Positions 1 to 21,670 of a DNA stretch of 64,000 nucleotides are shown here, one piece after another. Source of the DNA: Miscanthus floridulus (Eukaryota > Streptophyta > Magnoliopsida > Poales > Poaceae). The notes under the pieces are model-generated. The model was given only the letters and a program-made list of their open reading frames with translations. It had not been told where the DNA came from and made no database searches. The translations under genes were made by a program, and so were the position numbers. The stretch spans positions 27,757,491 through 27,821,490 of the forward strand of contig NC_089598.1 of NCBI RefSeq assembly GCF_019320115.1, in the 5' to 3' direction. Each line of letters begins with the position of its first letter. Within the stretch, counting starts at the first letter, position 1.

Positions 1-3000
1 TTTATATTTATGTGGTAGGTGTTGAATTGTATTGTTTGACTCAAGTTCAAAGTTTGTTTGGATTTTGAATTTTTCGAGAAAACCTCGATTTTCAGCATTT
101 AAATCCTACCCTGAAAATCCATTTCAAAATCTAAGCATATTTTGGGGTTGAGCCCAAAAGCAAAAGTGTAGAGTTTGACAAGTTATACAAAGTTTGTTTT
201 TGGAGTTTTTCAAGTTGTTTAGAAAAATTTTGAGTAATTCAAAAAGGCATAATTTGTTAAATTTCCCTATTCAAATTCAAAAGTTCATTTCAAAATCTAG
301 ACCAAATTAGGAGATGGTTATAAAAGCAAAGTTGTAGAACTTTTGATTTTGAACAACTTTTGTTTTTGGAGATTTTTGAGTCGTTATGAAAATTTGGGAG
401 TAATTTGAGTTTCTAACTGGATGGCAATTCTGTAATTAAGTGGAACAGTACTCGCCGCTCAAACTACACCGCCGGCGACCTTCTTCAGTGTTCTAGGCGC
501 GTCGTGGCTGTCCTTGGCGTCGCGCTAGCACGGAAACGGCTCCGTCGTGGCTTTCTTGAGCTTCTGAGTCGCGTTATAAGAATCGAGACGCCGTCGTCGT
601 CGTTTTTCTTCCTCCTCTGTTTTTTTCCGTCACCACCATCGCAGCTCCGTCGAGCTCTCGCCGTCGACCTAGCGCCGTTGCCGTCTCGGCAAAGCTCGTC
701 CCAGCTTTGCCTATTCCTTGCACACCCAGCCAACCAACCTTGGTCGCCTGTATTCGCTGAGAACTTGCTGTGCGCGCTCTTCTTCCTCGCGGCCGGCAAC
801 ATCTCCGTCATGGCTGCTCCGTCGTGGCCAGCACTCTACGGTGAGCTTCTGACCTCGGGAAGCATTGTTTCAACTTTTCCATGATGCATGGTGCTTTGTG
901 CCCAGTTGATTGACCATTTTGTCCACCATAGTCGCCGAAACATCGCCGTGGTCGTTGCGTGCTCTGCCGTGGTTGCTGTGAATGTCGACTAGCGCCTCCG
1001 CTGATCATCCAGCTCGGCTCTTGGCTCCAACTCGTTCGGGGTAAGCTGCTGGTGCTTCCTGAGCCATCCGTTTAAGCTTTACAGGTCTCACATCACCGGC
1101 GTAGTGCAGTAGCACCGTCGTGGCCGCCATGGTCGGCGTAGTGCTCGGTTCAGTCCGTAATTGGTCGCGTTAGTGCCATAAATCGATGCGCTGTGACGTA
1201 GTGATCATGTTAGTACCCTCGACATCGCTGTTGGTCTCACCGGCGGCGAGAATTCGCTGGTCAGCACGCGTACCACCGTGGTCAACGTCGGAGGTTAGGG
1301 ATGACAGGTGGGGTCGGGTTCTCAGTGACTCAACGTTCAAATGGAATTTTTCTATTTTCAGATTTGAATGAATAGCGATGTAATTTGTTATTTTTGTGTA
1401 GATTTATTTAGAGCTCCAAAAATTATGAAATTTTTTGTGTGACCTCCCTATGGTGTATATTATTTAAGAAAAATATGAAATAATGTTTTTCAGTAATTTT
1501 TAATATGATAAAAATTGCTCAATTAATTAATAAATGGATTTCCATGATTTTTCTAGGCTTATTTAATTGTCCAAAAATTATGAAATGTGTTTTACCACTT
1601 ACTTATCATGTAATGAACATTTACTAAAATTTTGAGCTCAATCAGAATGAGTTGATTTATTTCATAATTTTGAATTAAATAATTAATTCATAAAAGCAAA
1701 TAGTAACCTTTAATGATTTAGGTTTTGTTTGAAATTTTGGATTGAGTGATGACCTTGGGTCATTAGTTGGTAATGATCCTTGGCAATTGATGTAAGTAAT
1801 ATGAAAAAGATTTGGTTAGTTTGACTTGCAACTGTACCACGAAGGAAAGTTGTATTCAAATTCTTAATTTTTGCATCCATCATCGAGCATCATATTTTGT
1901 ATTCCGCATTATGTTAAACATGGCATTGTTACTACGTGTAGTGAACAAAGGTGAACACATGGTAACTAATCAAGTTGTTGAGGAAGTTAATCCATCTATT
2001 GAGGTCGGATCGAATACTTGTGAAACATCGCAGGAACCAGGCTTTTCCGTCAACGAAGGCAAGCCCCGGATGCATACAAACCTACCTTGTGTTTTACAAA
2101 TCAATTTCGCTTTTGCTTTTTGTTACTATATTAAGTAATTAGGAGTTAAGTAAGAACCTAATTGGTGCATTACCACCCTTGTTATTCCATATTTACCATA
2201 TTACCAGTTTTAAATTCGTATACGCCTAGTTTTGCTTAGCTAGGCGTAGAACGATGAAAGTCGGGTGATTACCTGCCACCTACACGTTTTAAATGGAACC
2301 TTGGTTACTTATGTTATCATGTGATATGGGGATTTGGAGTAATAAATCTAGACCGGGCGGACTCGGTGTGTGTGAGCCACAAGACATGGAGGTCTTGTGA
2401 GCGGGCTCTTTCCGCCTGTGTCGATAAAGGTCCGTCCATTGTTGAACTGTGTGCGGTGAGACTTTGTAGTACTAACCACATACTCTAGTAGTCCTTAACT
2501 TGGTGATTCTATTACGAGAATGGCTACTCGCGCATTGGGAGTGGAGAGATGGCGGGAATAGCGTGTACCCACGTGGCAATGGGCTGGATTGGTGGAGTAC
2601 TGTATTCTCGGGTGGCATAGACCCGTTCTTGTTTTAGAGGATCCGAAAGTAGGTTGATATATGTAGGTCGGGGACCTGCATATGTCGTGTGGTCTGGAAT
2701 TCCCAGCTGGGTTTAATCAGTTCGAATCGTCGTTGCTCCTCGGTTATGGAGACTCACTTCTCTGTTCATCATCGTAGAACTAATAACTAGAACTCGAATA
2801 AGGCTTGTGAAGGTGTTGGAGATGAAGTTTCATGATCTCAACATGGATCGTGTCAGCTTTGTATATGATTTTATGAAGTTTTCTATATAAAGAATTTTGT
2901 TAAAGAGCTTGTATGCAAAGAACTTTGATTATTGTTAAAACCATACCTTGAATCCCTGAGCCAGCATTCCTAAGTTTATCAGTTAATATTTTGGTTAAGT

Positions 3001-3484
3001 TTTGTTGAGTACTTTTGTACTTAGGGTTCGTTGACCCTTGTTGCAGGTGAGCCTCATGAGCAGATCTGTTTTAGATCATGCTGTATGACAGTTGTTCCTT
3101 GTGATGACGATGAGAAGTAAATGTGTGGCCCTTGGGCAGGGCAGTTTTATTGTGTGTGTTGTATTATATTATAATGCCACTCCACTACTACTACGGTTTG
3201 TAATAATTATCGAACTTAGTTTGTAAGGTTTGAAACAACTGGTTTGTAAACTAAGTTATTGTAAGACTTCCGCTGTTTTTACTTTGGTATTGATTTTTGA
3301 ATAAATGTTGTAATACGGCAATGACTCTGTAATGTGATCCTGCTCGAAAATCGTGGATGATTCGGGGTTCCCCGAGGACACCCGATAGACTTCTTAAGTT
3401 ACCAGGAACATATGCCTATTTGTCAAAGGTTGTTGGATAGTGACAAGTGCATGTGGGTCCTATAATTTAGGAGGTTCTACCATA
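1..3484 (+). repeat. 5' LTR of the Tekay-type element, left end missing
   Basis: Base 1 aligns with about 9399 in the 3' LTR, so roughly the first 103 bp are missing. The right end is fixed by alignment with the 3' LTR end; its terminal CA has become TA. A hand comparison of the first ~430 bp with the 3' LTR gives 13 differences, 11 of them transitions. Positions about 430-1340 are GC-rich and the rest is AT-rich. Short ORFs inside (for example near 504-884) are not conserved in frame and are not called. Confidence 0.95.
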
Positions 3485-3888
3485 GAATAGTATCAGAGCG
3501 ATTGTTGTAAGGTTTTGTTGTATTGTTTTACAAAAACTTCAAAATGATTTGGGATGACTAAATTTAACTTGATAATTTGGTTCAAATTGCTTCTGACTTA
3601 TCTTATTTCTTTCTCACCATTCCATATTTGATTAAAAAGGTTTTGTGTGGTGGAGTAGTAATCTTACTATGCCCTATATAAAAATAAATGTTGTTTATGT
3701 GCATTATAAACTTTGATGTTTTTGTTCGTAAGAACGATTCATGCATCATGATTAATTCACTCGTTACTTCCTTCACCTCTTAGTCTGGAGTTGAGTAGTG
3801 AGTCTGGTTTGAGTAATGTAATCCATCTTAGCTGCTCTTTAGACTTTGATCAAATGGTCTTACTTAGATTAAATTGGTTTCCTATAGT
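3485..3888 (+). other. Leader between 5' LTR and the small ORF
   Basis: Apart from the primer site at its start, this is AT-rich untranslated leader. It presumably holds packaging signals, but none can be recognised by eye. No ORF of note was seen. Confidence 0.5.
3488..3500 (+). promoter_or_regulatory. Primer binding site, initiator tRNA-Met
   Basis: The TATCAGAGC core lies four bases after the LTR end. It matches the usual plant iMet PBS (TGGTATCAGAGC) with the second G of TGG changed to A. It primes minus-strand synthesis. Confidence 0.85.
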
Positions 3889-4458
3889 ATGGCTCGAACC
3901 AAGATGACACCCCATAAGTCCATAGGACCCAAAGGAGTTCCTCGTCACCAACTTGCCCCTAGAAATGACGGTGCTAGCAGTAGCAGCTCTAGGCCTGATC
4001 CCCAAACAGAGATATAGAGGATTTCTGTAGAATTAGCACAAGCTACTAGAGATAGGGCTTTGGATGCTATATAGGTAGGAGAATTACAGGATCAATTGAG
4101 GCATCTCACCACCGCTCACAAGAACTGCAAAAGTATGTTAGTTCGTACGGTGGAGGGAAGGAATGAAGATTGGCATAGGGAAAATATAGCTAGAGCTAGA
4201 ACTCATGAGTTAGAATTCTATGTAGAAGATTTAGAAGAACATAATACTTATCTACATGAGGAAGTTCATAGGCTAAGCAATCTACTAAATCCTAATCATG
4301 AGCCCCAAGCTGATGCCATGGACCCCGATGTCATCCTTGCCGATGATAACAAATCGGAAGAGGAAGAAGAAGAAGATCCTAAAGAATTAGTAATGACCAA
4401 TGAAAGTGATGATGAAGGCGGTAATAATTCTGGAATGGATACCAAGCCTGAAGTTTGA
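3889..4458 (+). pseudogene. Tekay ORF1: H3-tail-like N-terminus, coiled coil, acidic C-terminus
   Basis: An ATG at 3889 opens a 189-residue frame interrupted by TAG at 4015 and 4072; both read as likely former CAG codons. The start begins M-A-R-T-K. Residues 2-23 follow the histone H3 tail with one inserted residue: positions equivalent to A1, R2, T3, K4, T6, K9, S10, G12, K14, P16, R17, Q19, L20 and A21 are identical. A Ser-rich linker follows, then a helical, probably coiled-coil stretch (about residues 70-135) with heptad-like Leu/Val spacing, then a Glu/Asp-rich tail. There is no histone fold, so it is not an inserted H3 gene. It shares the gag-pol frame but is separated by about 180 bp full of stops. 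I do not know a published function. A histone-mimic or chromatin-targeting accessory protein is my inference. Confidence 0.7.
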
Positions 4459-4638
4459 AGTAATCACGAAAAGGAGTAGAGTTGTATAATAGTTAGTTAT
4501 AGTTAAGTTATGTAGTTTTGTTTTGGTACTTATAGGTTCTGGTGTTTATATTAGTAAACCCTATGTAAATGTGTCTAGAGTAAACTTTTGTGCAATTCAA
4601 TAAAGGCTTGTGAATAAAGTTTGGTTTGTTATGAGCTG
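4459..4638 (+). other. Stop-rich spacer between ORF1 and gag, with two AATAAA hexamers
   Basis: Stops crowd the gag frame, so ORF1 and gag are not one simple protein. AATAAA occurs near 4600 and near 4613. The spacer may be an intron remnant, a leaky-scanning or IRES spacer, or a poly(A) region. The sequence alone does not decide. Confidence 0.5.
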
Positions 4639-5766
4639 ATGCGTCGTATGCGGGGTTCGTATATTCCTAGAACTTCACAAGATGAGGATGGTATTCTAGA
4701 TCCACCACCAGTTCCAATAAATCTAGCTAATGCTATAACCGCACTTATCAATGTGACGACTAAAAATCCCCGTTTGCTTCATGAGATCGCCCTAAGTAAT
4801 CAGAATCAGATGCAAGGAAACCGTGGTCGCCACCACAACAGACAGGAGGCTATATATGTTGACTTTATAGACACAAGACCACTGGTGTTCACCAAGGTAG
4901 ATGAACCATTGGAGGCTGATGACTGGCTTCGAACCATGGAACAGAAATTTGACCTTACTCCATGCACGGAGTATCAGAAACCTACGTTTGCCACCCAGCA
5001 ACTTAGAGGAGAAGCAAGTGCTTGGTGGGCGAACTTAGTGGCTATGCAACCAGCTAGCATTCCAATAACTTGGGCTGAGTTCTATACTACCTTCGGAGCC
5101 CATTATATCCATGAAGGAGTGATGGCCATGAAGCTAGATGAATTCCTTGCTTTGAAGCAAGGAGATCAAACTGTGATGCAGTATGTGGGAAGATTCAATC
5201 ACCTGTCACAATATGCATCTGAACATGTCAATACTGATGCTAAGAAGAAGAGGTGGTTTATGAGAGGTTTGAATACCAAACTGCAAACAATGATGACAAC
5301 TTGCACCAATGTCACTTATCATGAGACCGTAAATATTGCAATTGCTTCAGAGTCAAAGTATCGGCAGCATAAGGAGCTCAAAAAGAAAAAGAGTATGCCG
5401 TCCGGATCTTTTGGGGGAAATCAAAAGAGTCAGAGGGTGATTTATCATCTAGTACATCATAATCGTCCTCCTTACCGCCCGCCATAGTCTCAAGTCGGGC
5501 AACAGTCAAATGTCCGTCCTACTATAACCTATCTGAATTCACAGTCAACCAATGCTCCTGGTGGCAATGCTCCAACGTCCTAGGGTCACAACTATCCATG
5601 TTACAATTGTGGAAGGACTGGTCATTTCTCCAGGGAATGTCCATATCCTAGGTAGGCTAATCAAAATTATCAGAAGGCTCCTACCAATCAACAACAGGGT
5701 CAGGCACCAAACAAGAACCCCAATCAAAATACTCAGAAGGGCAAAGATGAGAGGAAGATAAGACGG
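4639..5766 (+). pseudogene. gag: Tekay gag (capsid and CCHC nucleocapsid)
   Basis: The first ATG in frame is at 4639. A retrotransposon gag domain spans roughly codons 70-250, with the usual W-x-R-x-M-E-Q-x-F and A-W-W motifs followed by the G-D-Q-T-V-M-x-Y-V segment. A Lys-rich linker leads to a single CX2CX4HX4C knuckle at 5599-5640. Three in-frame TAG codons (5485, 5581, 5653), probably former CAG, break the C-terminal half. The frame is otherwise open and continuous with pol, without any frameshift. Gag would form the cytoplasmic virus-like particle and bind element RNA. Confidence 0.9.
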
Positions 5767-7600
5767 GTGTTTTATATTCAAGCTGGAGAAATTCTAAAAG
5801 GGGAGCCAGTGATGATGGGTATGTTTCCTGTTGCTAATCACCCTGTAGTTATACTTTTTTATTCTGGTGCATCGCATTCATTCATCAATAGAACATTTGT
5901 TGTGAAGTATGAAATTTCAATTGGGGCAACAAAGGAAAGTTTCTTTATACAGTCGCCCGGGGGACGTCTGTGTACTAAGAAAATGGTATACCAGGTACCC
6001 GTAAACCTGGGTGGGCATATTTTTCCCACTACCATGATTATCCTTAAGGATCAGGATATAGATGTAATCTTGGGAATGAATTGGATGTATCAGCATAAGG
6101 CTATTATAGATGCTTTGAATAGGACATTAAGAGTAAGTTTGCCTGATAGTAATTCTCAACTTCTCATCCAACTTCCAACCCTAAGAAGATCAGTGGGCAA
6201 GGTCTGTGCAACTACTGTCAAAGAGATTAGAGAAATTCCTGTAGTGTGTGAATTTCCGGATGTGTTTCCAGAAGATCTACCCGGTATACCACCTGATAGG
6301 GATGTCCAGTTTAACATAGAGTTACAACCTAGAACAGCTCCGATTTCTTGGAGAGCTTATAGGATGCCACCTAAGGAATTAGCCGAGTTGAAGACTCAGT
6401 TACAAGAATTGATTGAGAAAGGATTTATTCAACCTAGTTCATCACCTTGGGGATGTCCGGCAATATTTGTGAAAAAGAAAGATAAGAACCTAAGGTTATG
6501 TGTTGACTATCGTCCGTTGAATGAAGTGACCATCAAGAATAAGTATCCCTTACCTCGGATAGATTGGCTTTTTGATCAATTGGCCGAAGCCAAAGTTTTC
6601 TCCAAGATAGATTTGAGGTCAGGATATCACCAAATCAAGATAAAGCCTAAAGATATTCCCAAAACAGCATTTACCACAAGATATGGATTATATGAATACT
6701 TGGTAATGTCTTTTGGTTTGATAAATGCTCCAGCTCATTTCATGTATCTGATGAATTCAGTATTCATGCCTGAGCTAGACAAGTTTGTAGTGGTGTTTAT
6801 TGATGACATTTTAGTATTTTCCAAGAATAAGAAAGAACATGCGGAACATCTCAGAATTGTTCTGACCTGCTTGAGAGAACATTAACTATATGCCAAGTTC
6901 AGCAAGTGTGATTTTTGGCTTAAGGAAGTGCAATTTCTTGGACATGTCTTGTTAGCCGAAGGAGTTGCAGTTGATCCCAGCAAAGTGAAGGATGTGCTTG
7001 ATTGGAAACCGCCAACCACAGTTCATCAAGTTCGGAGTTTTTTGGGTTTGGCAGGGTATTACCGTCCGTTTATTCTAGATTTCTCTAAAATATCAAAGTC
7101 CATAACTGAATTGTTGAAAAACCAAGTCAAGTTTGTCTGGTCATCTGATTGTGAAGAGGCTTTCCAGACTTTGAAAAGATTGTTGACTACTGCACCAGTG
7201 CTAGCCCAACCTAATATCGAAAAGCCGTTTGATGTGTATTGTGATGCTTCAGGTATTGGTATGAGATGTGTGTTGATGCAAGAAAGCCGAGTCATTGCTT
7301 ATGCATCTAGGCAACTTAAGCAGCATGAAGAACACTATCCAACTCATGACCTGGAGTTAGCAGCTGTGGTTCATGCTCTGAAGATTTGGTGGCATTACCT
7401 GCTTGGTAATACGTGCCATATGTATACAGACCACAAGAGCTTAAAGTATATCTTTACCCAGTCAGAATTGAACATGCGACAAAGAAGATGATTAGAACTG
7501 ATTAAGGATTATGATTTAGAAGTACATTATCACCCGGGTAAAGCAAATGTGGTTGCAGATGCCCTCAGTCGCAAAAGTTATTGCAATTGTCTGACAGTGA
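5767..7600 (+). pseudogene. pol: Tekay pol: protease, reverse transcriptase, RNase H
   Basis: Same frame as gag. The protease site reads F-Y-S-G-A-S-H-S-F near 5857-5883; the family has D-S-G, so the catalytic Asp (codon 5860) is now Tyr. RT carries the conserved V-D-Y-R-x-[14 protein letters not shown] and the catalytic F-I-D-D box at 6796-6807, which is intact. RNase H follows, with [14 protein letters not shown] and the Y-T-D-H-K-S-L motif. Premature stops are TAA at 6883 (former CAA) and TGA at 7489 (former CGA). The stop pattern looks like cytosine deamination in a silenced copy. Confidence 0.92.
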
Positions 7601-9129
7601 GAACAATGGGTTTGAATTTATGCCAAGAAATGGAGAAATTGAATGTAGAAGTAACTCAACAAGGAAGTTTGACCAACATAATTGTTGAAGCCACTATTCA
7701 AGATCAAATTATTGCTGGTCAGAAGGAAAACAAGGGTATAGCCCATATCAAGGAAAGAGTCAAGAATGAAAAAGCGGAATGCTTTAGCATAGATAATGAA
7801 GATATGTTATGGTTCAAGGATCGCCTGGTGGTACCAAAAGTTCCTGAGTTGTGGCAGTCAATTCTAGATGAAGCACATGCTACTAGGTTATCTATCCATC
7901 TAGGAAGCAACAAGATGTACCATGACTTGAAGCAAAGATTCTGGTGGACTAAAATGAAAATAGAGATTGCTAGATATATAGCAAAGTGTGATACTTGTCA
8001 AAAGGTGAAAGCTATATATTTGAGGTCTACTAGTGAATTACAACCATTACCTATTCCATCTTGGAAATGGGAGGACATAAGTATGGATTTTATTGTTGGT
8101 CTACCCAAGACATCAAAGGGATTTGATTCAGTATGGGTTATTGTAGATCGACTAACCAAATTAGCACATTTTCTTCTAGTTTAGAATACATATCCCACTA
8201 TACGGTATGCCAAGATGTATTTAGAGCGAATTGTGAGTCTCCATGGAGTACCCAAGACTATTGTGTCAGATAGGGGTACATAGTTTGTCTCTAACTTTTG
8301 GAAACAGTTGTATTCTTTATTAGGTACCAAACTTCTGTATAGTACAGCTTATCATCCACAGACTGATGGACAGACTAAAAGAGTCAATCAAGTACTTGAA
8401 GATATGTTAAGGTGTTGTGTCCTTAACTATTCCAATAAGTGGGATGAATGCTTACCTTTAGCCGAGTTCTCATACAACAATAGTTATCAAGAAAGCATTA
8501 GAATGGCTCCATTTGAAGCACTCTATGGTCGTAGATGCAGAACATCGTTGAGTTGGTCTGAGCCTGGAGAAAGAAGATTCTTTGGAGTTGACCTTGTGAA
8601 AGAAATAGAAGACAAGGTTAGGCAAATACAGAGTAATTTGAAGATAGCTTAGTCCTGCCAAAAGAGTTATGTAGATAGAAGACGAAGACCATTAGTATTT
8701 AACAAAGGAGATTTTGTATATCTGAAAGTATCACCAATGAAGGGAGTTACCCATTTTGGTGTTAAAGGAAAGTTGGCACCCCGATATATTGGACCATATC
8801 AAATTTTGGAAAGGTATGGAAAAGTGGCATATCGCTTGAAATTACCTGAACATCTCGCAGCTGTGCATGATGTGTTCTATATTTCTCAATTGAAAAAGTG
8901 TCTCTGAGTGCCTGAACAGAATGTTGAAGTTGAAGGAGTGGAACTAGAACCGGATTTAACTTATTCTGAATATCCTATCCGAGTGTTAGATCAGAAAGAT
9001 CGTGTTACTCGAAGACGGACAATGAAGTTCTATAAAATACAATAGAATCAACATTCAGAAGAGGAAGCTACTTGGGAATCAGAAGATTACTTAATAGAAA
9101 AGTTTCCTGAGTTTCTAGCGTCAATATAG
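7601..9129 (+). pseudogene. Tekay integrase with C-terminal chromodomain
   Basis: The order is an HHCC zinc domain (ending C-D-T-C-Q near 7990-8000), a DDE core, a GPF/GPY-like module (G-P-Y-Q-I-L-E-R-Y-G near 8790) and a chromodomain with the E-E-A-T-W-E-x-E-D-Y-L signature at about 9061-9096. The second Asp is at 8269. The catalytic Glu that should precede R-V-N-Q is Lys (AAA at 8377), so the enzyme is dead. Premature stops: TAG 8182, TAG 8281, TAG 8650, TGA 8905 and TAG 9043 (a former Trp codon). The apparent natural stop is TAG at 9127. In this clade the chromodomain is thought to steer insertion to H3K9-methylated heterochromatin. Confidence 0.92.
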
Positions 9130-9295: not shown

Positions 9296-12200
9296 TGTAA
9301 CACCCCGGGTGTTTAAATATTAAAACTGCCATATCATCATATGCATTACAAGGCAATTGGTCATATTAAAAACTTTGAGATGCATACACTAAAACAAGTT
9401 TATATTTATGTGGTAGGTGTTGAATTGTATTGTTTGACTCAAGTTCAAAGTTTGTTTGGATTTTGAATTTTTCGAGAAAACCCCGATTTTCAGCATTTAA
9501 ATCCTACCCTAAAAATCCATTTCAAAATCTAAATATATTTTGGGGTTGAGCCCAAAAGCAAAAGTGTAGAGCTTGACAAGTTATACAAAGTTTGTTTTTT
9601 GAGTTTTTCAAGTTGTTTAGAAAAATTTTGAGTAATTCAAAAAGGCGTAATTCATTAAATTTCCCTATTCAAATTCAAAAGTTCATTTCAAAATCTAGAC
9701 CGAATTAGGAGATGGTTATAAAAGCAAAGTTATAGAACTTTTGATTTTGAACAACTTTTGTTTTTGGAGATTTTTGAGTCATTATGAAAATTTGGGAGTA
9801 ATTTGAGTTTCTAAGTGGATGGCAATTCTGTAATTAAGTGGAACAGTACTCGCCGCTCAAACTACACCGCCGACGACCTTCTTCGGCGTTCCAGGCACGT
9901 CGTGGCCGTCCTTGGTGTCGCGCTGGCATGGAAATGGCTCCGTCATGGCTTCTTTGAGCTTCTGAGTCGCGTTATAAGAACCGAGACGCCATCGTCGTCA
10001 TTTTTCTTCCTCCTCTGTTTTTTTCCCGTCACCACCACCGCAGCTCCGTCGAGCTCTCGCCGTCGACCTAGTGCCATTGCCGTCTCGGCAAAGCCCATCC
10101 TAGCTTCACCTATTCCTTGCGCACCCAGCCAACCAACCTTGGTCGCCTGTATTCGCCGAGAACTTGCTGTGCGCGCTCTTCTTCCTCGCGGCCGGCAACA
10201 TCTCTGTCATGGCTGCTCCGTCGTGGCCAACACTCTATGGTGAGCTTCTGACCTCGGGAAGCATTGTTTCAGCTTCTCCATGATGCCGTGGTGCTTTGTG
10301 CCCGGTTGATTGACCATTTTGTCCACCACAGTCGCCGGAACATCACCGTCGTCGTTGCGTGCTCCGCCGTGGTTGCTGTGAACGTCGACCAGCGCCTCCG
10401 TTGATCATCCAGCTCGGCTCTTGGCTCCAACTCGTTCGGGGTAAGCTGCTGGTGCTTCCTGAGCCATCCGTTTAAGCTTTACAGGTCTCACATCACCGGC
10501 GTAGTGCAGCAGCGCCGTCATGGCCGCCATGGTCGGCGTAGTGCTCGGTTCAGTCCGTAATTGGTCGCGTTAGTGCCATAAATCGATGCGATGTGACGTA
10601 GTGATCATGTTAGTACCCTCACCGTCGCTGTTGGTCTCACTGGCGGCGAGAATTTGCCGGTCAGCACGCGTACTGCCGTGGTCAACGTCGGAGGTTAGGG
10701 ATGACAGATGGGGTCGGGTTGTCAGTGACTCAACGTTCAAATAGAATTTTTCTATTTTCATATTTGAATGAATAGTGGTGTAATTTGTTATTTTTGTGTA
10801 GATTTATTTAGAGCTCCAAAAATTATGAAAATTTTTGTGTGACCTCCCTATGGTGTATATTATTTAAGAAAAATATGAAATAATGTTTTTCAATATTTTT
10901 TAATGTGATAAAAATTGCTCAATTAATTAATAAATAGATTTCCATGATTTTTCTAGGCTTATTTAATTGCCCAAAAATTATGAAATTTGTTTTGCCACTT
11001 ACTTATCATGTAATGAACATTTACTAAAATTTTGAGCTCAATCAGAATGAGTTGATTTATTTCATAATTTTGAATTAAATAATTAATTCATAAAAGCAAA
11101 TAGTAACCTTTAATGATTTAGGTTTTGTTTGAAATTTTGGATTGAGTGATGACCTTGGGTCATTAGTTGGTAATGATCCTTGACAATTGATGTAAGTAAT
11201 ACGAAAAAGATTTGGTTAGTTTGACTTGCAACTGTACCACGAAGGAAAGTTGTATTCAAATTCTTAATTTTTGCATCCATCATCGAGCATCATATTTCGT
11301 ATTCCGCATCATGTTAAATATGGCATTGTTACTACATGTAGTGAACGAAGGTAAACACATGGTAATTAATCAAGTTGTTGAGGAAGTTAATCCATCTATT
11401 GAGGTCGGATCGAATACTTGTGAAACATCATAGGAACCAGGCTTTTCTGTCAACGAAGGCAAGCCCCGGATGCATACAAACCTACCTTATGTTTTACAAA
11501 TCAATTTTGCTTTCGCTTTCTGTTACTGCATTAAGTAATTAGGAGTTAAGTAAGAACCTAATTGGTGCATTACCACCCTTGTTATTCCATATTTACCATA
11601 TTACCAGTTTTAAATTTGTATACGCCTAGTTTTGCTTAGCTAGGCGTAGAACGATGAAAGTCGGGTGATTACCTACCACCTGCACGTTTTCAATGGAACC
11701 TTGGTTACTTATGTTATCATGTGATATGGGGATGTGGAGTAATAAATCTAGACCGGGCGGACTCGGTGTGTGTGAGCCACAAGACATGAAGGTCTTGTGA
11801 GCGGGCTCTTTCCGCCTGTGTCGATTAAGGTCCATCCGTTGTTGAACTATGTGCGGTGAGACTTTGTAGTACTAACCACATACTCTAGTAAGCCTTAACT
11901 TGGCAATTCTATTACAAGAATGGCTACTCGCGCACTAGGAGTGGAGAGATGGTAGGAATAGCGTGTACCCACGTGGTAATGGGCTGGATTGGTGGAGTAT
12001 TGTATTCTCGGGTGGTGCGGACCCATTCTTGTTTTAGAGGATCCAAAAGTAGGTTGATTATGTAGGTCGGGGACCTACATATGTCGTGTGGTCTGGAATT
12101 CCCAGCTGGGTTTAATCGGTTCGAATCGTCGTTGCTCCTTGGTTATGGAGACTCACTTCTCTGTTCATCATCGTAGAACTAATAACTGGAACTTGAATAA

Positions 12201-12883
12201 GGCTTGTGAAGGTGTTGGAGATGAAGTTTCATGATCTCAACACGGATCATGTCAGCTTTGTATATGATTTTATGAAGTTTTCTATATAAAGAATTTTGTT
12301 AAAGAGCTTTTACGCAAAGAACTTTGATTATTGTTAAAACCATACCTTGAATCCCTGAGCCGACATTCCTAAGTTTATCAGTTAATATTTCGGTTAAGTC
12401 TTGTTAAGTACTTTTATACTCAGGGTTCGTTGACCCTTGTTGTAGGTGAGCCTCATGAGCAGATCTGTTTTGGATCATGCTATATGATAGTTGTTCCTTG
12501 TGATGACGATGAGAAGTAAATGTGTGGCCCTTGGGCAGGGCAGTTTTATTGTGTGTGTTGTATTATATTATAATGCCACTCCACTACTACTACGGTTTGT
12601 AATAATTATCGAACTTAGTTTATAAGGTTTGAAACAACTGGTTTGTAAACTAAGTTATCATAAGACTTCTGCTATTTTTACTCTGGTATTGATTTTTGAA
12701 TAAATGTTGTAATATAGCAATGACTCTGTAATGTGATCCTACTCGGAAATTGTGGATGATTTGGGGTTCCCCGAGGACACCCAACAGACTTCTTAAGTTA
12801 CCAGGAACATATGCCTATTTATCAAAGGTCGTTGGACAGTGACAAGTGCATGTGGGTCCTATAATTTAGGAGGTTCTGCCACA
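9296..12883 (+). repeat. 3' LTR of the Tekay-type element (complete)
   Basis: Starts TGTAACACCCC and ends CACA, 3588 bp, and aligns with 1-3484. It is identical in layout to the 5' copy, with a GC-rich section at about 9830-10740. It ends inside minus-strand env-like coding sequence, marking the insertion point. Confidence 0.95.
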
Positions 12884-14524
12884 ACAGGTAGTCGTCATCT
12901 GAACTATCACTAGACTCGCTCCTCTCCTCCTGAGCCTCAAACTGCTCCTCCTTAGTAGCGGCTATGCCTTTGATAATCTCGTCCTGCTGAGCTGCTGACT
13001 CTGGTACATCTGGACAATGGCGAGGCTGAGTGGTTGCCTATGGTGTGCTATGCCTGATCCTCTGTGCCATGTTATAAGCTAGAAACTCAGTGGTGGCACC
13101 TTTGTACTCTGCAACCATCTCAGGAGTCCTAACATGCACAACCTTGAGCATAAGAAATGTGATTCAGTGTGCATATGGAAGCTGCCTACGACCCTTGAAG
13201 CCCTTAGCAATAGTATCCTCCATCTCTGATAGAAGGAGGTCCCAAATATCGAACATAGTCTGCTGCATCAGGGCGTTGAGGAGCCAAAGCTATAGGCGAG
13301 TCAGACCCTCTCTGTATCCCAACCTAAGAAGTAGTGTCCTCCTGATGATAGCCTCTAGCACTCGAGCTATAGGAGTAAGATCATTGGGGTTCCTCCTCGA
13401 CCCCTCACCAAAAGGCTCCTTGAAGCAATGATGTACAAGATCTGTAGGGGGCACCAAACCACCATGAGGACGCCTAGGAGGCTATTGCTGTCCATAACAT
13501 ACCTCGTGTAACTTGACAGGCTGCTCCTGTAGCCTCAGTATCTCCCTGGCCCTAAAACTCATCATCCTATAGTCTTTGCCTCTGAATGCAAAGTGTATGA
13601 AGTTATGCTATGGGTCAATGTAGAGCGAAGCATAAAACTGCCGAACCCAAGATGGTACATACAATCCTATCCGGCCAATCAGATCTGTCAGCCCTGGTAG
13701 ATATGATAAGTAGGGGTGGATATGCTCTCCAGCTACTGCCACAATAGCCTTAATACTGCAAACTCTCTGAGATCGAAAGACTGCCCCACTGTTCAGATAT
13801 GCATTGTAGAAGTCTTCCTAGTGCGGTGTATAGAAGCCCTCTGCTGCTCTCTCATCCCGCCTCGGAGGAAACCATACATCAAACTCCACAAAGCGAAGCT
13901 GCTGAACCTGCTTGGCCATGGCGGCCCTCAAGTCAAGGTGAACCACTAGAGGCGGACCCTATGGATGAGGTGGTGGACGTGATCCCCTCCGCTATGTTAG
14001 CAGCCTCGGTGACACTAGAGCCTAGGTACGACCAGAGCGGCATAGCTGTGGCTAGGGTGCCTGCTCGGTCTCCTCAGCCTACTGTCCCTCCTCATCCTCC
14101 TAAGGTTGTTGTGACTGCTGTCCCTCCTGTGTCTCCTGAGCTGGCTGAGGCTCTGCTAGTGGGGGCTGCTGCTATGACTCCTGCTGTGACTCCCTTGAGG
14201 CTAAGGATCCACAATAGGAAGATGTCATCCTACCATCATGACAGTCCCAGGTGGACTACCATGAAGACGCTCAATGCGCTCAAGTCTACCCTGCGTGTCT
14301 GGTGCTAGATGATCTGCGATGACAACTCCACTGTGGGCACCTCTCTCGGCACGCTCTGCGGCCTTAGCGACTGCTGCTGCTCTCGCTGTCTCTGCATTAG
14401 GATACTTGCACTTCTTTGATGTAACCTGCTTTGTCGCCTTGCCTTTGGTTCCTACAGGCAAGCGAGACGGGGGTCTCTGATCATCATCTCCTGGACCACC
14501 ACCAACGTTCTTAGTGTGAGCCAT
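12884..14524 (-). pseudogene. Sirevirus env-like ORF, 3' part cut off by Tekay insertion
   Basis: The start codon is at 14524, reading M-A-H-T-K-N-V-G-G-G-P-G. A basic, Ala-rich region (about residues 25-75) follows. Further on, the frame can be followed with breaks through a globular region containing F-Y-N-A-Y-L, H-I-H-P-Y-L-S-Y and Y-V-P-S-W-V-R-Q-F-Y (about 13900-13620), then helices around 13430-13150 and an acidic Ser/Asp-rich end at 12884. Several stops look like former CAG, CAA or TGG codons. Such ORFs follow pol in many grass Sireviruses and are called env-like, though an envelope role is unproven. No clear signal peptide or membrane helix was seen. The reading stops at the Tekay 3' LTR. 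Confidence 0.7.
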
Positions 14525-16050
14525 CTGATCTAACAAGAGAAAAACTGTTGCTGACAAGATCAACTGTCCACTGACACTTTCAAGGCTTGGCCTCGATCCG
14601 TACTCGTGAGCTTGGCTCCGAGTTAACTAACAACTGCACCTGTGACCTCAACGGCACCGACTCGCTGCATGATGGAATAGACGGATATACAAGTAAATAC
14701 AATATATCTAAAAGATGTGAAATCCTATGTGAGTAAGCAATTTAGATGCGAAATAGAAACGACTGGCTTGCTACCTGACGAACCGGCGATCCGATGAAAA
14801 GAAAAGTGACACACAGGGAACCACCAGAAGACCTAGGGTTAGGGTTCACGATGAGCGGTGAATTGATAGCCCTGGATGCAATTAAAGTCAATGCTATGAT
14901 GAATTGCTAAGTCATGGCAAGATGGAAATTTGGATTGCTAGGGCACAAGCAGGGCCTTACCGACGCTGGACGTGGACTACACTGCCGTTGAGGAGACACA
15001 GTGGCGAGGCAAGGAGCGGCTCTGGCAAGGCTTGTGTGGATAGGTGCCTAGGGAGCACGGGGAGACATGACATGGCTCAGGGAGGTGCTGGCTATGTAGG
15101 ACAGCAGTGGCGAGCGGCTGCGGTGGCGCTCGGTCGCCGTGGCGCGTGGCTGCGGTGGCATGTGGTCGCGGAGCTAGGGCGAGCGCGGGCTGCACTCCGG
15201 TGACTAGGGTGTGCGGCGACGTGGAACAAGGAAGACTCATTGATTGGAGCACGACGACGTAGGGTTAGGTCAATGGTGTGAGATGAATCAGGTTATATGA
15301 GGGTCCCCCTTGTGTTAGAAATGGAAACAGAGATAAGAAACCTAATGCCATACGAGATCTACTGATCGGACACTCCGGTGGTAGCGACCGGACGCTACCA
15401 CCCAGTGTCCGGTCGATTCTAGAGAGGTCCAATTCCTCTGGAATCATGACCAGATGCGTCTGGTGGTCCATGACCAGATGCAGGCATGGTTCGGTTAGTT
15501 GCCTTGAACACCATATAGATCGATCGGACGCTGGAACCCTTCCTGACCGGACGCTCAAACATAGAGTCTGGTCACTCCTTCAGCTTCTGTTCACCTCCTA
15601 TGAACTTATCGGACGCTAGACAGCAGAGTCCGGTGCAGCGTTCGGTCACCCTTTCCCAGCAAATCTTCAATGTTCCTCCACACTGCCTGTTCCCAATCAA
15701 GTCCCAACTCAAATAAGATCCAAATAAACACCAATTGGGACTGATATGAGTGACCTCTCTCAAACCCTCAAGTTTTTCAAAATATTTTGTCTTAGGCTAT
15801 AATTCTTTTTAAGAAAATAGGCAATAAGAGGGCAAATGGAACAAAACGACAAAACAACATTCATGCATATGCAATACTTGTAAGTAAATCTAGTTGCTTG
15901 TCAAGTTTGATCCAAGGTTAAGCTTCTTCACACGCTTTTTGGCGGTTATCTTAACCATGTTAGACAAGCCCTATATGCATTATAAAAAATTAAACATGTT
16001 GTATATTACAATGAATGCAAGGGACAACACAAGCTCAATTTTTAGTGAAG
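14525..16050 (-). other. Sirevirus spacer between pol and the env-like ORF
   Basis: About 1.5 kb of internal sequence without a convincing ORF. On the minus strand, 15230-14900 is GC-rich, and a good splice acceptor (CATCATGCAG) sits near 14670. The env-like ORF may therefore be made from a spliced RNA (inference). The upstream part holds a palindromic array described separately. Confidence 0.5.
15340..15660. repeat. Array of inverted GACCGGACGCT / AGCGTCCGGTC motifs inside the Sirevirus
   Basis: Several CGGACGCT and GTCCGGT words occur in alternating orientation within about 320 bp, for example near 15385, 15405, 15527, 15550 and 15608. The same word set fills the element's LTR at 22460-22860 and the solo LTR at 48690-49050. 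Here it lies outside the LTR, between pol and the env-like ORF. Confidence 0.75.
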
Positions 16051-17640
16051 TTACTAAAATCAAGTACATTGAGCTCATTCCGCAATCTACAAAATGTAGG
16101 CTCACCTAGCAGTTTAGTGAAGATATCCGCTAATTGATCTTCGGTTCTTACACCTTCTAGTGATATATTATTTTTAGCATATGATCTCTTAGAAAGTGAT
16201 GGTAGATATCTATGTGCTTGGTGCGAGAGTGTTGAACCGGATTATTTACAAGTTTTACCGCACTTTCATTATCGCACAAAAGAGATACTTTTTCTAGAAC
16301 TACACCATAGTCTAGCAAAGTTTGTTTCATATAAAGTATTTGTGCACAACAAGCACCCATGGCAATGTATTCCGCTTCGGTGGTGGACAAAGCCACCCTA
16401 TTTTGTTTCTTGGAGGACCAAGACACAAGTGATCTACCAAGCAAATGGCACCCTCCGGATGTGCTCTATCTATCAACTTTGCAACCGGCATAATCCAAAT
16501 TGGAATAGCCAACTAATTCAAATATAGCTCCTTTGGGATACCAAAGGCCAATGCTTGGTGTGTGCTTAAGATACCTAAGGATTCTTTTTATAGCAATTAA
16601 ATATGTTTCCTTAGGATTAGCTTAAAATCTAGCACACATACACACACTAAACATGATGTCGGGCCTAGATGCGGTTAAATATAACAAGCTACCAATCATG
16701 GAACGGTAGAGAATTTGATCAACTGGGTTACCTCACTCATCTAGGTCGAGATGTCCATTGGTAGGTATTGGTGTCTTCATTGGCTTACATTAATCCATCT
16801 TGAATCTCTTGAAAAGATCTTTTGTGTATTTCTCTTGAGAGATGAAGATGCCTTCTTTCATTTGCTTGACTTGAAAACCAAGAAAGAATGTAAGCTCACC
16901 AATCATGGACATCTCGAACTTCTTCGACATCAATTTACCAAATTCTTTGCATGAGTCTTCATTTGATGATCCAAAGATAATATCATCAACATATACTTGA
17001 TAAATGAAGATATGCCCATCAAGCTTCTTGGTGAATAGTGTGGTGTCGACCTTCCCAATGGTGAAGCCCTTCTCAATGAGAAAGTCCCGAAGGCGCTCAT
17101 ACCAAGCTCTTGGGGCTTGCTTAAGCCCATATAGTGCCTTGGACAACCTATAAACATGATTAGGATATCTAGGGTCTTCAAACCCAGGAGGTTGATCAAC
17201 ATAGACTAGTTCATTAATAAAGTCATTTAAAAATGCACTTTTCACATCCATTTGATATAGTTTCATTTCATGATGCGATGCATATGCAAGAAGGATACGA
17301 ATGGCTTCTAGCCTTGCAACCGTTGCAAAGGTCTCTCTAAAATCTAAACCTTCAACTTGAGAGAACCCCTTTGCAACTAGTCTTGACTTGTTCCTCACAA
17401 CAACACCTTGATTATCTTGCTTGTTTCGGAACACCCACTTTGTTCCAATGACTCTTACACCTTTTGGTCGCTCTTCAAGAGTCCAAACCTCATTGCGAGT
17501 GAAGTTGTTCAACTCTTCATGTATGGCATTGATCCAATCCAGATCTTTAAGAGCTTCTTCTACCTTAGTAGGCTCATAGCAAGAGACAAAAGAGTGATAA
17601 GCAATAAATGAAGCAAGTTTTTTTAGATCGAGTCATTACA
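16050..17640 (-). pseudogene. Sirevirus pol 3' half: reverse transcriptase and RNase H
   Basis: The RT domain runs from about 17512 to 16790 with W-V-F-R-N-K, L-V-A-K-G-F, Q-M-D-V-K-S-A-F-L, G-L-K-Q-A-P-R-A-W and the catalytic Y-V-D-D box, all intact. Stops then interrupt (16789 and others). RNase H is readable at about 16444-16157 with S-L-V-S-W, S-T-T-E-A-E-Y and the terminal H-I-D-I motif. A frameshift near 16157 precedes the last part (D-Q-L-A-D-I-F-T-K, then L-R-N-E-L), which ends about 16050. A further frameshift separates RT from the integrase frame between 17680 and 17512. Confidence 0.9.
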
Positions 17641-19253
17641 CTCTTTGATAGACTCCCTATGATGAGATCTTGTGGATGATCTTATAGGAGAGGTATATTT
17701 CTTCTATTAACCACTTGAGGAGGAGGTTGTGGAGCATCAACATCTTGTGCTTGTACCACTATTTGGTCGTGGGAGACATGAGTGTCTTCATTTTCTACTC
17801 TCCCATCTTTTTTGCCATCTTGTGGTACATTTGATGAAGAGGGTGGATTTATCACTTGTACATCATCTTTAGGCTTGATGTCTCCAACCAGAATGTTCTT
17901 CATAGCCTCCCTTAATGGTTCATCACCTACATCATCAAGATTCTCATGTGCTCCTTAGGAGCCATTAGATTTATCAAATTCCACATCATATGTTTCTTTA
18001 ACCAAGCAGGTGGCATGATTAAATACTCTATATGCTTTGGACTTTGATGAGTAACCAACAAGAAAACCAATATCACAACGTCTTTGGAACTTCCCTAGGT
18101 ATTGCCGCTTCTTGTAGATGTAGCATTTGCAACCAAACACCCTAAAGAAGGAGACGTCTGGCTTCTTCCCATTAAGCAACTCATAAGGTGTCTTGCCAAG
18201 GAACTTTTGAAGGAATAGGCGGTTTGATGCATAGCATGCGGTGTTGATTGCTTCCACCCATAGAGCTTCAGGGGTGTTGTACTCATCTAGCATTGTCCTT
18301 GTAAGAGTGATCAAAGTCTGGTTCTTCCTCTCAACTATACCATTTTGTTGAGGGGTATAAGTTGCAGAGACTTCATGCTTGATCCCAACTTCATCATAAT
18401 AAGCTTCAATATTTGTGTTGTCAAATTCTTTTCCATTGTCACTTCTTATCTTCTTGAGCTTCACTTCAAATTTATTTTGAGCTCTCTTGGCAAACTTCTT
18501 GAAGCAAGATGCAACTTTGGATTTTTCATGAAGGAAGAATACCCATGTATACCTTGAATAGTCATCAACAATCACAAGACAATAGAGATTCCCTCCCAAA
18601 CTCTTGTATATTGTTGGTCCAAATAAATCCATGTGTAGGAGTTCTAGCACTCTTGTGGTTGACATGAAAGCTTTGGTTGGATGAGTATTTGCAACTTGCT
18701 TGCTGGCTTGACATGCACTACAAAGCTTGTCCTTTTCAAACTTCACATCCTTCAACCCTCTCACCAAATCATTCTTCATAAGCTTCTTGAGTGAGCTCAT
18801 CCCAACATGAGCAAGTCTTCTATGCCATAGCCACCCAAGTGTTGTTTTGGTGAATAGGCAAGTCTTCAAATTTGCATCTTCGGAGGTGAAGTCCATTAGA
18901 TATAAGTTGTTGTATCTAAATCCATTGAATATCACTTGATTATCATCTACCTTGGATACAACAACCTCTTTCTCGGTGAACAAGCATTGGAAGCTAAGAT
19001 CACACAATTGTCCAACGGATAGCAAGTTGAAGCTCAATGAAGCAACATAGAGCACATTGGAGATAGAATGATCATTTGATATTGCCACTTTGCCCAATCC
19101 TTTAACCTTGCCCTTTGAGTTATCTCCAAATGTTATTTTCTCTTGTCCATCTACCTCTTCATCTAGTGAGGTGAATATACAAGGATCACCGGTTATATGT
19201 TGAGTGCAATCACTATCAATAACCCAATGACTTCCACCGGTCTTGTAGTTCAC
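17641..19253 (-). pseudogene. Sirevirus protease and integrase
   Basis: At the N-terminus the protease triad reads D-S-D-C-T-Q-H; copia elements have D-S-G/D-S-x-C, and here the Gly appears mutated to Asp. A GAG-pre-integrase zinc segment (H-R-R-L-A-H-x-G ... C-x2-C) follows. The integrase core keeps all three acidic residues (M-D-L-F-G-P, R-S-D-N-G-x-E-F, V-E-R-K-N). The open frame ends with TAA at 17952, probably a former CAA. It continues in the same frame as a linker with a Pro/Asp-rich segment to about 17682. Confidence 0.9.
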
Positions 19254-19951
19254 CTACACACAAGAGATTTAAGCTTTAGGAATCCAAACTTGTTGAGGGC
19301 CCTTCACCTTCTCAATAAGTGACTTAGCCACCCAAATCTTCTTAGGCCTATTCTTGTTAGGGGGTCCTAAGAACATGACTTTCATCTTTCCACTAGAATC
19401 CTTTCTAAGCATGTAGTGAGCATTGAAGACAAAGGATCTAGCATGCTTAGGCAAGGGTTGTGGCAGTGGAGTTTGGCACTCATGAGCAAAATGGCCTTCT
19501 TGTCTACACTCAAAACATCTCTTTGGCTTTGGCTTTGGCTTTGATTGTTGTTGTTGAACTTGAGCCTTCTTCTTTTCTACACTTGCCACATATCCAATGC
19601 CACTTCTATCCATCTTCATGACGGTGTTCATGAGTAGCTCACTTTGGAGGTGCTTGCCTCTAGCAAACTTGCTCAACCTAATCTTGAGATGTTCTTTCTC
19701 CAACTTGAGCTTCTTATTTTCTTCCTTTAGATTATCATCTTTCTTCTCTTCTTTGAGCTTCTTGTTTTCTTCTTTGAGCTTTTCATTCCAATGATCAACT
19801 CTTTGTCATGATCAAGAGTTTCTAGCACAATGGTGTTGTGGCTTTTCATCTCTTCAAGATCTTTCATGAGCTTTTCATTTGTATTCTTGAGCTTGACATA
19901 TTCATCATAGTCATTACACTCAACCACTTTCTTGCCTTTGCCACTAGATCC
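19254..19951 (-). pseudogene. Sirevirus gag-pol junction with second CCHC knuckle
   Basis: Continues from gag in one frame to about 19800, where a one-base change shifts the frame. It resumes at 19703-19269. It contains Lys/Glu-rich coiled-coil sequence and a zinc knuckle, C-F-E-C-R-Q-E-G-H-F-A-H-E-C, near 19520-19480. A second knuckle here, in addition to the one in gag, is a trait of these long Sirevirus gag regions. Confidence 0.8.
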
Positions 19952-21670
19952 TTACTCAATGCTCTCATCAATCAAATCATCACATGGTGTAGCTATATCA
20001 ATCTTAACAACATGGTTAGTAGCATCATGTGGCTCATTTGGTAAAAATTCTTGAGCAATAACAAGAGTATCATGATTGATCTTAAGAGTTGTATATTCAA
20101 CTTTTAGCTTGTTGTGGCTAGTGATGAGCTCATTGTGCACCCACTCAAGTTTATCATGTTTATCTTTAAGCTCTTTCTTAGAAGATTTGAGCTCCTTGAG
20201 TTTGAATGATATAGCATCATTTATTTCTCTAAGCTCAACATTAGCCTTTTCCAATGTATCGCATTTTGCTAAGAGTGAATCATTTTTAGCATCAAGCTTT
20301 TCATTTTTAGCTCTACTCTTTTTAATGATCTTAGTGTATTTTCTTAGTATTTTGACAAGATCATCATATGAAGGTGAATCATCATCATCGCTATCGCTAT
20401 CATCATCACTAGCTTGCTCATCATCACTACTATCATCATTATTAGTTACCTTGCGTTCACCCTTGGCCATAAGGCATAGGTGTGTAAAGGATGATGACAA
20501 TGGTGGCGGTGAAGATGGAAGATCAATAGTAATGGTGGCCACCTTCTCATTGTCACTATCATCATCGGATGATCCACTAGATGAATCAATATCTGTGAGC
20601 CAATCACCGATGATGTAGGCCTTTCCACTTTTCTTCTTCTTGTGGAAGTCTCTCTTTTTGCCATCTCTCTTCTTGTATGGCTTGTTCTTCTTCTTCTCAT
20701 CTTCATCTTCATTACTTGAGTCATCTTTCTTGCCCTTGTTCTTGTTCTTGAACTTGTCTTTCTTGGGCTTGGAGCATTGATGTGCTAGATGACCAAGTTC
20801 ACCACAATTGAAGCAATCCATTTTGGAGATTAGCTTTCTTCTAGAGCTTGTGAAAAACTTCTTCTTCTTGCCATCGAACTTGATGCCACTCTTGTTTAGC
20901 TTCTTTAGCATCTTGGCGGCTTTCTTCACCATGAGAGCAAGATTTTCATCTTCATCTTCTTCATCACTTGAGCTCTCATACTCAAGTCTTGCTTTGCCCT
21001 TGTCTTGGCTAGCTTTGAATGCTAAGTCCTTCTCTTTCTTCTTGGTAGAGGATGAGCCATCTTGTAGCATGATGTGCATGTACATCTCATGAGCATTGAT
21101 CTTTTCTAAGATTTGTGTCGGTGTAGCGGTGGAAAGTTCACCTTGGTGTAGCACGGTCACAATGTGCCCATATTTGTCAATGGGGAGGACACTCAAGATC
21201 TTTCTCACAACATCGGATGGTGACATTTGAGTAAGTCCAAGCCCATTGACTTCCTCTACAAGAACATTTAAACGTGAATACATCTCATTAGCATATTCTT
21301 TGAGAAGTATCTCAAATGAATTTAGCTTTTTAATCACAAGATGATAGCATTCCTCACGCTCACTCTTGGTTCCCTCATGGAGTGCACAAACATCCGACCA
21401 TAGTGCATGGGCGTCTTTGTGGTTCCTTACGCGGTTGAACATATCTTTGCAAAGGCCTCTAAAGATGGTGTTTCGAGCCTTTGCATTCCACTTTTCATAA
21501 TTAACCTCATCGCCTTGTAAGTTAGTAGCATCCCAAGATTTTGGGAAGCCTTGTGAGGCGGCTCTAAAAATACCAACGTCTAGAGCTTCTAAGTACGCCT
21601 CCATGTGGATTTTCTAATATGGAAAGTCATCTCCCTCAAAGATAGGAGGAGGTTCATCCCCGTGAGACAT
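19952..21670 (-). pseudogene. gag: Sirevirus gag
   Basis: The likely true start is ATG at 21670, 18 codons before a TAG (21616-21614) that replaces an expected Trp. The following ATG at 21604 opens 550 residues. Residues ~1-180 form the UBN2-type gag domain (Y-E-K-W, F-R-G-L, L-W-S-D, L-H-E-G-T, M-S-P-S-D-V-V-R-K-I-L). A knuckle C-F-N-C-G-E-L-G-H-L-A-H-Q-C lies near 20820-20780. After it come Lys-rich and Asp/Ser-rich low-complexity parts, then a coiled coil. Gag forms the particle core. Confidence 0.9.

Follow-up and report, generated by a model that had tools for sequence, protein, structure and literature searches.

Why should a retrotransposon encode a protein that begins like the tail of histone H3, and is that beginning kept by selection? 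The question is raised by a locus of the grass Miscanthus floridulus in the window analyzed here, which is the whole stretch of 64,000 nucleotides (contig NC_089598.1, positions 27,757,491 to 27,821,490 of the forward strand). The window contains a decayed member of a Tekay-type (Ty3/gypsy chromovirus) long terminal repeat (LTR) retrotransposon, and all features of this element given below are on the plus strand. Ahead of gag, the element has an accessory open reading frame (ORF), named ORF0 here and ORF1 in an earlier sequence-only reading of the same DNA, at 3889..4458 (189 codons plus a stop). Two in-frame TAG codons (4015..4017 and 4072..4074), absent from that reading, break ORF0 in this copy. 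Plants tag the N-terminus of H3 to switch jumping genes off, and histone mimicry has so far been known as short motifs in viruses and some cellular proteins. The comparisons described below confirm the H3 likeness, which is larger than first noted and general within this genome.

Likeness of ORF0 to the histone H3 tail

The frame at 3889 reads MARTKMTPHKSIGPKGVPRHQLAPRN, and the ORF0 start is MARTKMTPHKSIGPKGVPRHQLAPR (MARTKMTPHKS...). In translation, the initial Met and the H3-tail mimic together occupy 3889..3960, corresponding to about H3 residues 1–22 with one insertion. As the sequence-only reading had counted, 14 positions are identical to H3 residues 1–21 around one inserted residue, and these include K4, K9, S10, K14, and R17. 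The R8 position is H in this copy. When the first 42 residues of ORF0 were shuffled, none of 20000 shuffles reached the H3 score of 59 (best shuffle, 53), such that the likeness appears to be beyond chance. A search of PDB chains with the same 42 residues gave 65 distinct sequences with an E-value of 10 or less. The best 60 of these are all histone H3, H3 variants or peptides, H3/CENP-A chimeras, or Cse4, and the matches listed align from residue 1 or 2. The best E-value (0.13) is not significant alone, and the significance comes instead from the family of related ORF0s.

Protein searches for such relatives found 446 sequences, of which the best 120 were examined, and a second search, with the best 120 of 212 examined, added some new ones. 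A third search, with the distant relative P0155 as query, gave eight proteins, none of them new. P0155 shares 37% identity with the second query; it reads MARTKQAARKSSGPKGVPRHRLA and has 10 identities to H3 residues 1–13, compared with eight for the window copy. Against PDB, it matched Cse4 at E 0.0097 in an alignment that extends beyond the tail; among the best 60 of its 68 matches, the remaining ones are H3, H3 variants, or chimeras, with a GCN4 leucine zipper as the one exception.

Downstream of the tail, ORF0 does not resemble a histone. A predicted coiled-coil helix with the family motif EE.N..LHEEVH.L spans 4000..4290, as judged from alignments and from the AlphaFold2 model of the open relative P0003, which is a single helix at residues 38–133 (mean pLDDT 75.6, pTM 0.37) with low-confidence ends that lack predicted structure. 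Translation and alignment place an acidic C-terminal tail at 4317..4455. No Pfam family, histone families included, matched above the curated cut-off among the ORF0 proteins scanned; the relative P0008 has a precomputed PF08614 (ATG16) assignment. The coiled coil and acidic tail of the sequence-only reading are supported on this open relative, and a true histone H3 is ruled out, as the Pfam scans and the P0003 model give no histone fold after the tail.

The H3 likeness extends to other families in the 2.68-Gb M. floridulus assembly (2420 contigs). The pattern MARTKxxARK occurs at 2567 places and the reversed control pattern at none; the count was obtained with the motif as the search criterion and is expected to take in true H3 genes as well. 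From 100 listed places, 20 were read, picked to span codon variants. None is a histone gene; 19 belong to five families (F1–F5), and one represents F6. Typical ORF0 starts are MARTKQTARKSTGGRAPRRPLALR in F1, MARTKQTARKSTGGRAPSRQLAPR in F2, MARTKLTARKSAGGRAPRHRLAPR in F4, and MARTKRTARKSAGGRAPRHRLAPR in F5. The F3 start is MARTKQTARKSTGG(R/K)AP.HQ.APR, with E for G12 in one of three loci, and the single F6 locus reads MARTKLTARKRTLPMPTRR, beyond which the sequence looks unrelated. H3 residues 1–13 (ARTKQTARKSTGG) are reproduced exactly in F1, F2, and most F3 loci and near-exactly in others, and in F1–F3 the match starts at Met and goes on to about residue 24. The H3-tail mimic proposed from the window copy is thus carried by the accessory ORF of open relatives and is more exact in several families than in the window.

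The ORF0 proteins of F1–F3 contain a middle domain, over 100 residues long, that F4, F5, and the window family lack. This domain (TFL.EFGMPTLLWRVL...; residues about 30 to 175 in L079 and L086) has no Pfam match above the cut-off. The motif EE.N..LHEE could be aligned across F1, F2, F4, F5, P0155, and the window-family proteins (F3 and F6 being outside the alignment), and the families compared share this predicted coiled coil. The frames downstream of ORF0 in F1, F2, F4, and F6 resemble gag, protease, and reverse transcriptase (RT) by eye. F6 (L097 and L102) appears to be a more divergent Ty3/gypsy element, in which an acidic Gly/Asp-rich stretch follows the H3-like start of the pre-gag ORF.

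Residues kept and selection on the tail

The window itself and 39 copies at 94–96% identity make up the 40 best-matching places in the genome. Among these 40, K4, K9, S10, and K14 are kept in all, and residue 3 is split evenly between T and A (20 copies each). However, the 39 copies were selected by likeness, and retention among them tells little about constraint. Changes at R2, R8, and R17 are to H, C, Y, or stop, which CpG decay of CGN codons would yield. ORF0 is intact in 12 of the 40 copies, where "intact" required a stop at the end, such that L045, without any stop, was scored as broken. Four loci (L073 to L076) are identical, have open reading frames, and are of the T3A type; being identical, they are presumably young.

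The residues kept were also tallied in a sample of 70 copies for which the tail was not a criterion. It comprises 20 F1 and 20 F4/F5 copies found with tail-less queries, as well as 30 loci of the window family. The query for these 30 was P0155, which bears the tail but whose alignments to them all start at query residue 102 or later. For F1, residues 46–300 gave 11492 candidates, of which 149 were scored (94–100% identical, most of them open over 353 or 355 codons) and 20 read. For F4, residues 25–194 gave 10768 candidates, of which 150 were scored and 20 read. The copies read are at least 94% (F1) and 89% (F4/F5) identical to their queries and are related within each family, and the 70 are therefore not independent. 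In F1, K4, K9, and S10 are kept in all 20 copies and R2, A7, and R8 in 19 each; K14, K18, and K23 are kept in none. In F4/F5, the start is in frame in 19 of 20 copies, with K4 in 19, K9 in 19, S10 in 18, R8 in 17, and R2 in 15; K14 is R and K18 is H in all 20. Among the 30 coil-aligned window-family loci, four of which have an indel near the tail, K9, S10, and K14 are kept in 30, R2 in 29, K4 in 28, and R8 in 23, and the K18 position has H in 29 loci and N in the remaining one. Pooled over the 70 copies, K9 is kept in 69, S10 in 68, K4 in 67, R2 in 63, R8 in 59, and K18 in none; K14 is retained by the window family alone. These sequences show that A1, R2, K4, R8, and K9 are mostly kept, and that K18, K23, and (outside the window's family) K14 are lost. 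The tails are more variable at positions 3, 5, 7, 10, and 11, and remain basic where K is replaced by R at 14 and 23.

Relatives also occur in metagenome-derived data, where 36 of 160 proteins have a complete matching N-terminus. K4 and K9 are present in all 36, T3 in 32, and K18 in none; the pattern used demanded K14 and L20, and those columns are uninformative. In P0122, P0126, P0147, P0149, and P0158, M replaces S10, leaving no phosphorylatable residue right after K9. No ORF0 relatives were found in IMG/VR viral contigs, and the pattern is absent from GTDB genomes.

The sequence-only reading had called for the tail codons to be compared for constraint, and between families replacement changes are indeed scarce relative to silent ones. 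Over codons A1–G12, F1 and F2 differ at five of 10 silent sites and at none of 26 replacement sites. Across 20 pairs, the silent difference is 0.20–0.84 and the replacement difference 0.00–0.21. The pair L062/L068, two window-family copies that differ by a single replacement (T3A) and by nothing at silent sites, was set aside. Pooling F1–F2 with F4–L062, which have no family in common, gave a Fisher p of 6e-7, based on rounded counts and on two pairs assumed to be independent without a tree. Between families, identity outside the tail is 30–52% (except for F4/F5, 86%), compared with 67–100% in the tail; for F1 and F2, the tail is identical at 12 of 12 positions and the rest at 47%. The end of the coil around LHEEVHLL is also strongly conserved in F1, F2, F4, and F5, the families compared there (F3 is broken in this region and the window family is outside the comparison; some silent values here are above 1 and hence saturated), and ORF0 thus has two conserved parts, of which the tail is one. 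In a published survey, Oryza ORF0 overall has a mean Ka of 0.2574 and Ks of 1.6471 (PMC3485330), which further argues for a coding gene. Given the many silent and few replacement differences, the tail looks translated and selected, and the mimicry together with its maintenance by selection is well supported by these comparisons. A frame that is never translated, which the sequence-only reading had named as a refutation, is thus argued against indirectly, through the codons.

A possible decoy and its alternatives

An AG immediately precedes the ORF0 ATG in all 20 other-family loci (L079–L098) and in all 20 further F1 copies. Examples are ttttgctacag/ATG and ttcttatag/ATG, and atggtgcag/ATG in F2 is pyrimidine-poor. 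In the window, a splice-acceptor-like site (TCCTATAG, then T and ATGG; region 3883–3889) has its AG at 3886..3887, one base ahead of the ORF0 ATG. The gag ATG is preceded by CAG in F1, F2, F4, F6, and 41 of 42 window-family relatives (the gag-start pattern matched in 42 of 69 loci scanned, and the others were dropped), and by CTG in the window (4636–4639). Of the 1302 ATGs in the window as a whole, 43 have CAG or TAG directly before them, and the leader of the element has ten upstream ATGs. The AG before both start codons may be read as two splice acceptors, and ORF0 and gag would then be made from alternative transcripts, each spliced to an acceptor right next to its own start codon.

We infer that the best of several candidate mechanisms is a decoy. 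ORF0 may be an accessory protein with a selected imitation of the H3 tail at its N-terminus, acting as a decoy for writers and readers of H3K9 methylation (H3K9me), and we consider this possible at a little under an even chance. After removal of Met, the tail would be taken as H3 by H3K9 methyltransferases and K9me2 readers, and tails clustered on the coiled coil would compete with nucleosomes for them. Plant ADCP1 recognizes R2-K4-K9me2, not ARKS, and S10 phosphorylation weakens this recognition (PMC6318295). The BAH domain of ZMET2 contacts H3 residues 1–10 with K9me2, and activation of ZMET2 depends on residues 14–23, K18 above all, such that H3(1–17)K9me2 does not stimulate it (PMC9256654, in part). 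R2, K4, R8, and K9 without K18 is the profile expected of a ligand that is bound but not activating. Given the absence of K18, ZMET2/CMT3-type readers would be occupied but not activated, and H3K9me2/CHG silencing would be blunted long enough for element transcription. The fuller version, in which grass Tekay elements encode a spliced accessory protein whose clustered decoy tails jam the H3K9me2-CHG loop, is put forward tentatively and seems rather doubtful. We are similarly hesitant about the suggestion that the R2-K4-K9 address was kept and the CMT-activating K18 switch lost as a countermeasure common to several highly successful families.

Several observations weigh against the decoy. The loss of K18 may have other reasons. 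The window family has A7P in 30 of 30 loci and T3A in 21 of 30 (T3 kept in nine), which could weaken some readers. The metagenome-derived proteins keep R2 in only 23 of 36 and R8 in 26, with mostly H in their place, as CpG decay would give, and S10 in 27. Species other than M. floridulus are represented solely by such proteins. In F2 and F4/F5, upstream ATGs are in frame in the unspliced reading, and the tail would be buried if these were used. In F6, the likeness is limited to MARTKLTARK.

Alternatively, the tail may serve as a tether, where host readers of H3K9me or of unmethylated H3K4 (H3K4me0) hold ORF0 and deliver the capsid or the pre-integration complex to particular chromatin, which would be targeting rather than anti-silencing. 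The same pattern of kept residues speaks for it, the long helix and acidic end (P0003 model) would suit an adaptor, and the group II chromodomain of Tekay elements is one for which no partner was found (PMC3350952). However, no link was found between ORF0 and capsid or integrase, and ORF0 is separate and ahead of gag; we consider a tether unlikely. A nuclear import or histone-handling signal, by which the mimic takes ORF0, or whatever ORF0 carries, into the nucleus, is less plausible again. The H3 tail itself is an import signal and a chaperone ligand, and the ORF0 tail stays basic through K to R changes at 14 and 23, but such a signal should not demand exact residues 1–13 while silent sites vary freely, and K18 is replaced by H in F4/F5 and the window family.

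The sequence-only reading had also suggested that the element's own chromodomain may bind the tail. The chromodomain is present, as a Tekay-type group II domain (8971..9123, translated by eye with one in-frame stop) that carries EEATWESE at the 3' end of pol, matching the C-terminal group II motif EEXTWEXE (PMC3350952, in part). Tail and chromodomain are therefore encoded by one element, and in the same report a group II chromodomain-YFP fusion sits in heterochromatin and co-localizes with TFL2 (PMC3350952). Its role as a reader of the tail is nevertheless very improbable, because group II domains are described there as missing the first aromatic cage residue and, in most cases, the third, with no binding partner found (PMC3350952). 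Host readers and writers of H3K9 methylation are better candidates. Finally, a likeness that has no function, left by the capture of a histone exon or arisen by chance, for which the F1–F3 match from Met to about residue 24 and the broken window copy might speak, can be set aside as scarcely credible given the shuffles, the F1–F2 codon counts, the pooled Fisher test, and the many open frames in two families.

The element and known systems

The 5' LTR extends to 3484 in the window (end set by eye) and begins 103 bases before it, with the start TGTAACACCC located upstream; comparison of the LTRs places the 3' LTR at 9296..12883, for a length of about 3.59 kb. Positions 1–3482 and 9399–12881 are 95.2% identical over 3484 columns. 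At a rate of 1.3e-8 per site and year, the element is about 1.9 million years old. GCAGG flanks the 5' LTR and ACAGG the 3' LTR. Directly 3' of the 5' LTR end, a primer-binding-site-like stretch (AATAGTATCAGAGC...) lies at 3485..3500, which we take to be of the tRNA-Met type. Pfam places gag (Retrotrans_gag, Ty3_capsid) at 4639..5487, aspartic protease and RT at 5767..6885, and the zinc-binding part of integrase (Integrase_H2C2) at 7549..8184, all within one element between the LTRs, as in Tekay-clade chromoviruses (Ty3/gypsy). On the minus strand, an ORF at 14225–14563 with the inner start MAHTKNVGGGPGDD... has an ARTK-like beginning and apparently belongs to a different element, and retrotransposon frames at 16790–21604 resemble the copia type by eye (gag, integrase, RT-like).

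With ORF0 separate and ahead of gag-pol and an LTR over 3 kb, the layout is that of Retrosat2-type elements, which are described as longer than 12 kb, with LTRs above 3 kb and an additional ORF ahead of gag-pol (PMC3485330). The same source reports ORF0 of unknown function in the grass elements Retrosat2, FRetro3, RIRE3, RIRE8, ZMsat2, Sorsat2, and Brasat2, found in grasses only in that survey and diverging faster than ORF1 between families (PMC3485330). The window ORF0 is likened to that of Retrosat2 and RIRE8 by layout and description. Retrosat2-type ORF0s were modeled mostly as hydrolases or acyltransferases, and "histone" never appears in the main text (PMC3485330). No published H3 mimic in a retrotransposon was found among the papers listed from open-licence PMC full texts, preprints not included. 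If the decoy reading is true, the near-exact H3 N-terminus shared by these very abundant retrotransposons would give the unexplained ORF0 a role, and a new player would join the arms race over plant silencing. Gene annotation could also mistake such ORFs for histones, and antibodies against the H3 N-terminus could catch them.

Viral histone mimics such as influenza NS1 and SARS-CoV-2 ORF8 have short motifs of about four residues. These mimics, the cellular H3K9-like motifs (PMC10611923, in part), and ORF0 have in common an H3-like stretch in a non-histone protein. The cellular motifs are also about four residues long (ARKS and similar), whereas the ORF0 likeness has up to 13 exact residues, is N-terminal, and occurs in several mobile-element families. 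The Tekay chromovirus chromodomain is a chromatin module of the same element, possibly a reader rather than a tail (PMC3350952, in part). With the VANC proteins of VANDAL transposons, ORF0 would share element-encoded anti-silencing, which is shown for VANC and proposed for ORF0; in the sections available, VANCs are described as sequence-specific, with no H3 likeness mentioned there (PMC5735166, PMC10398659).
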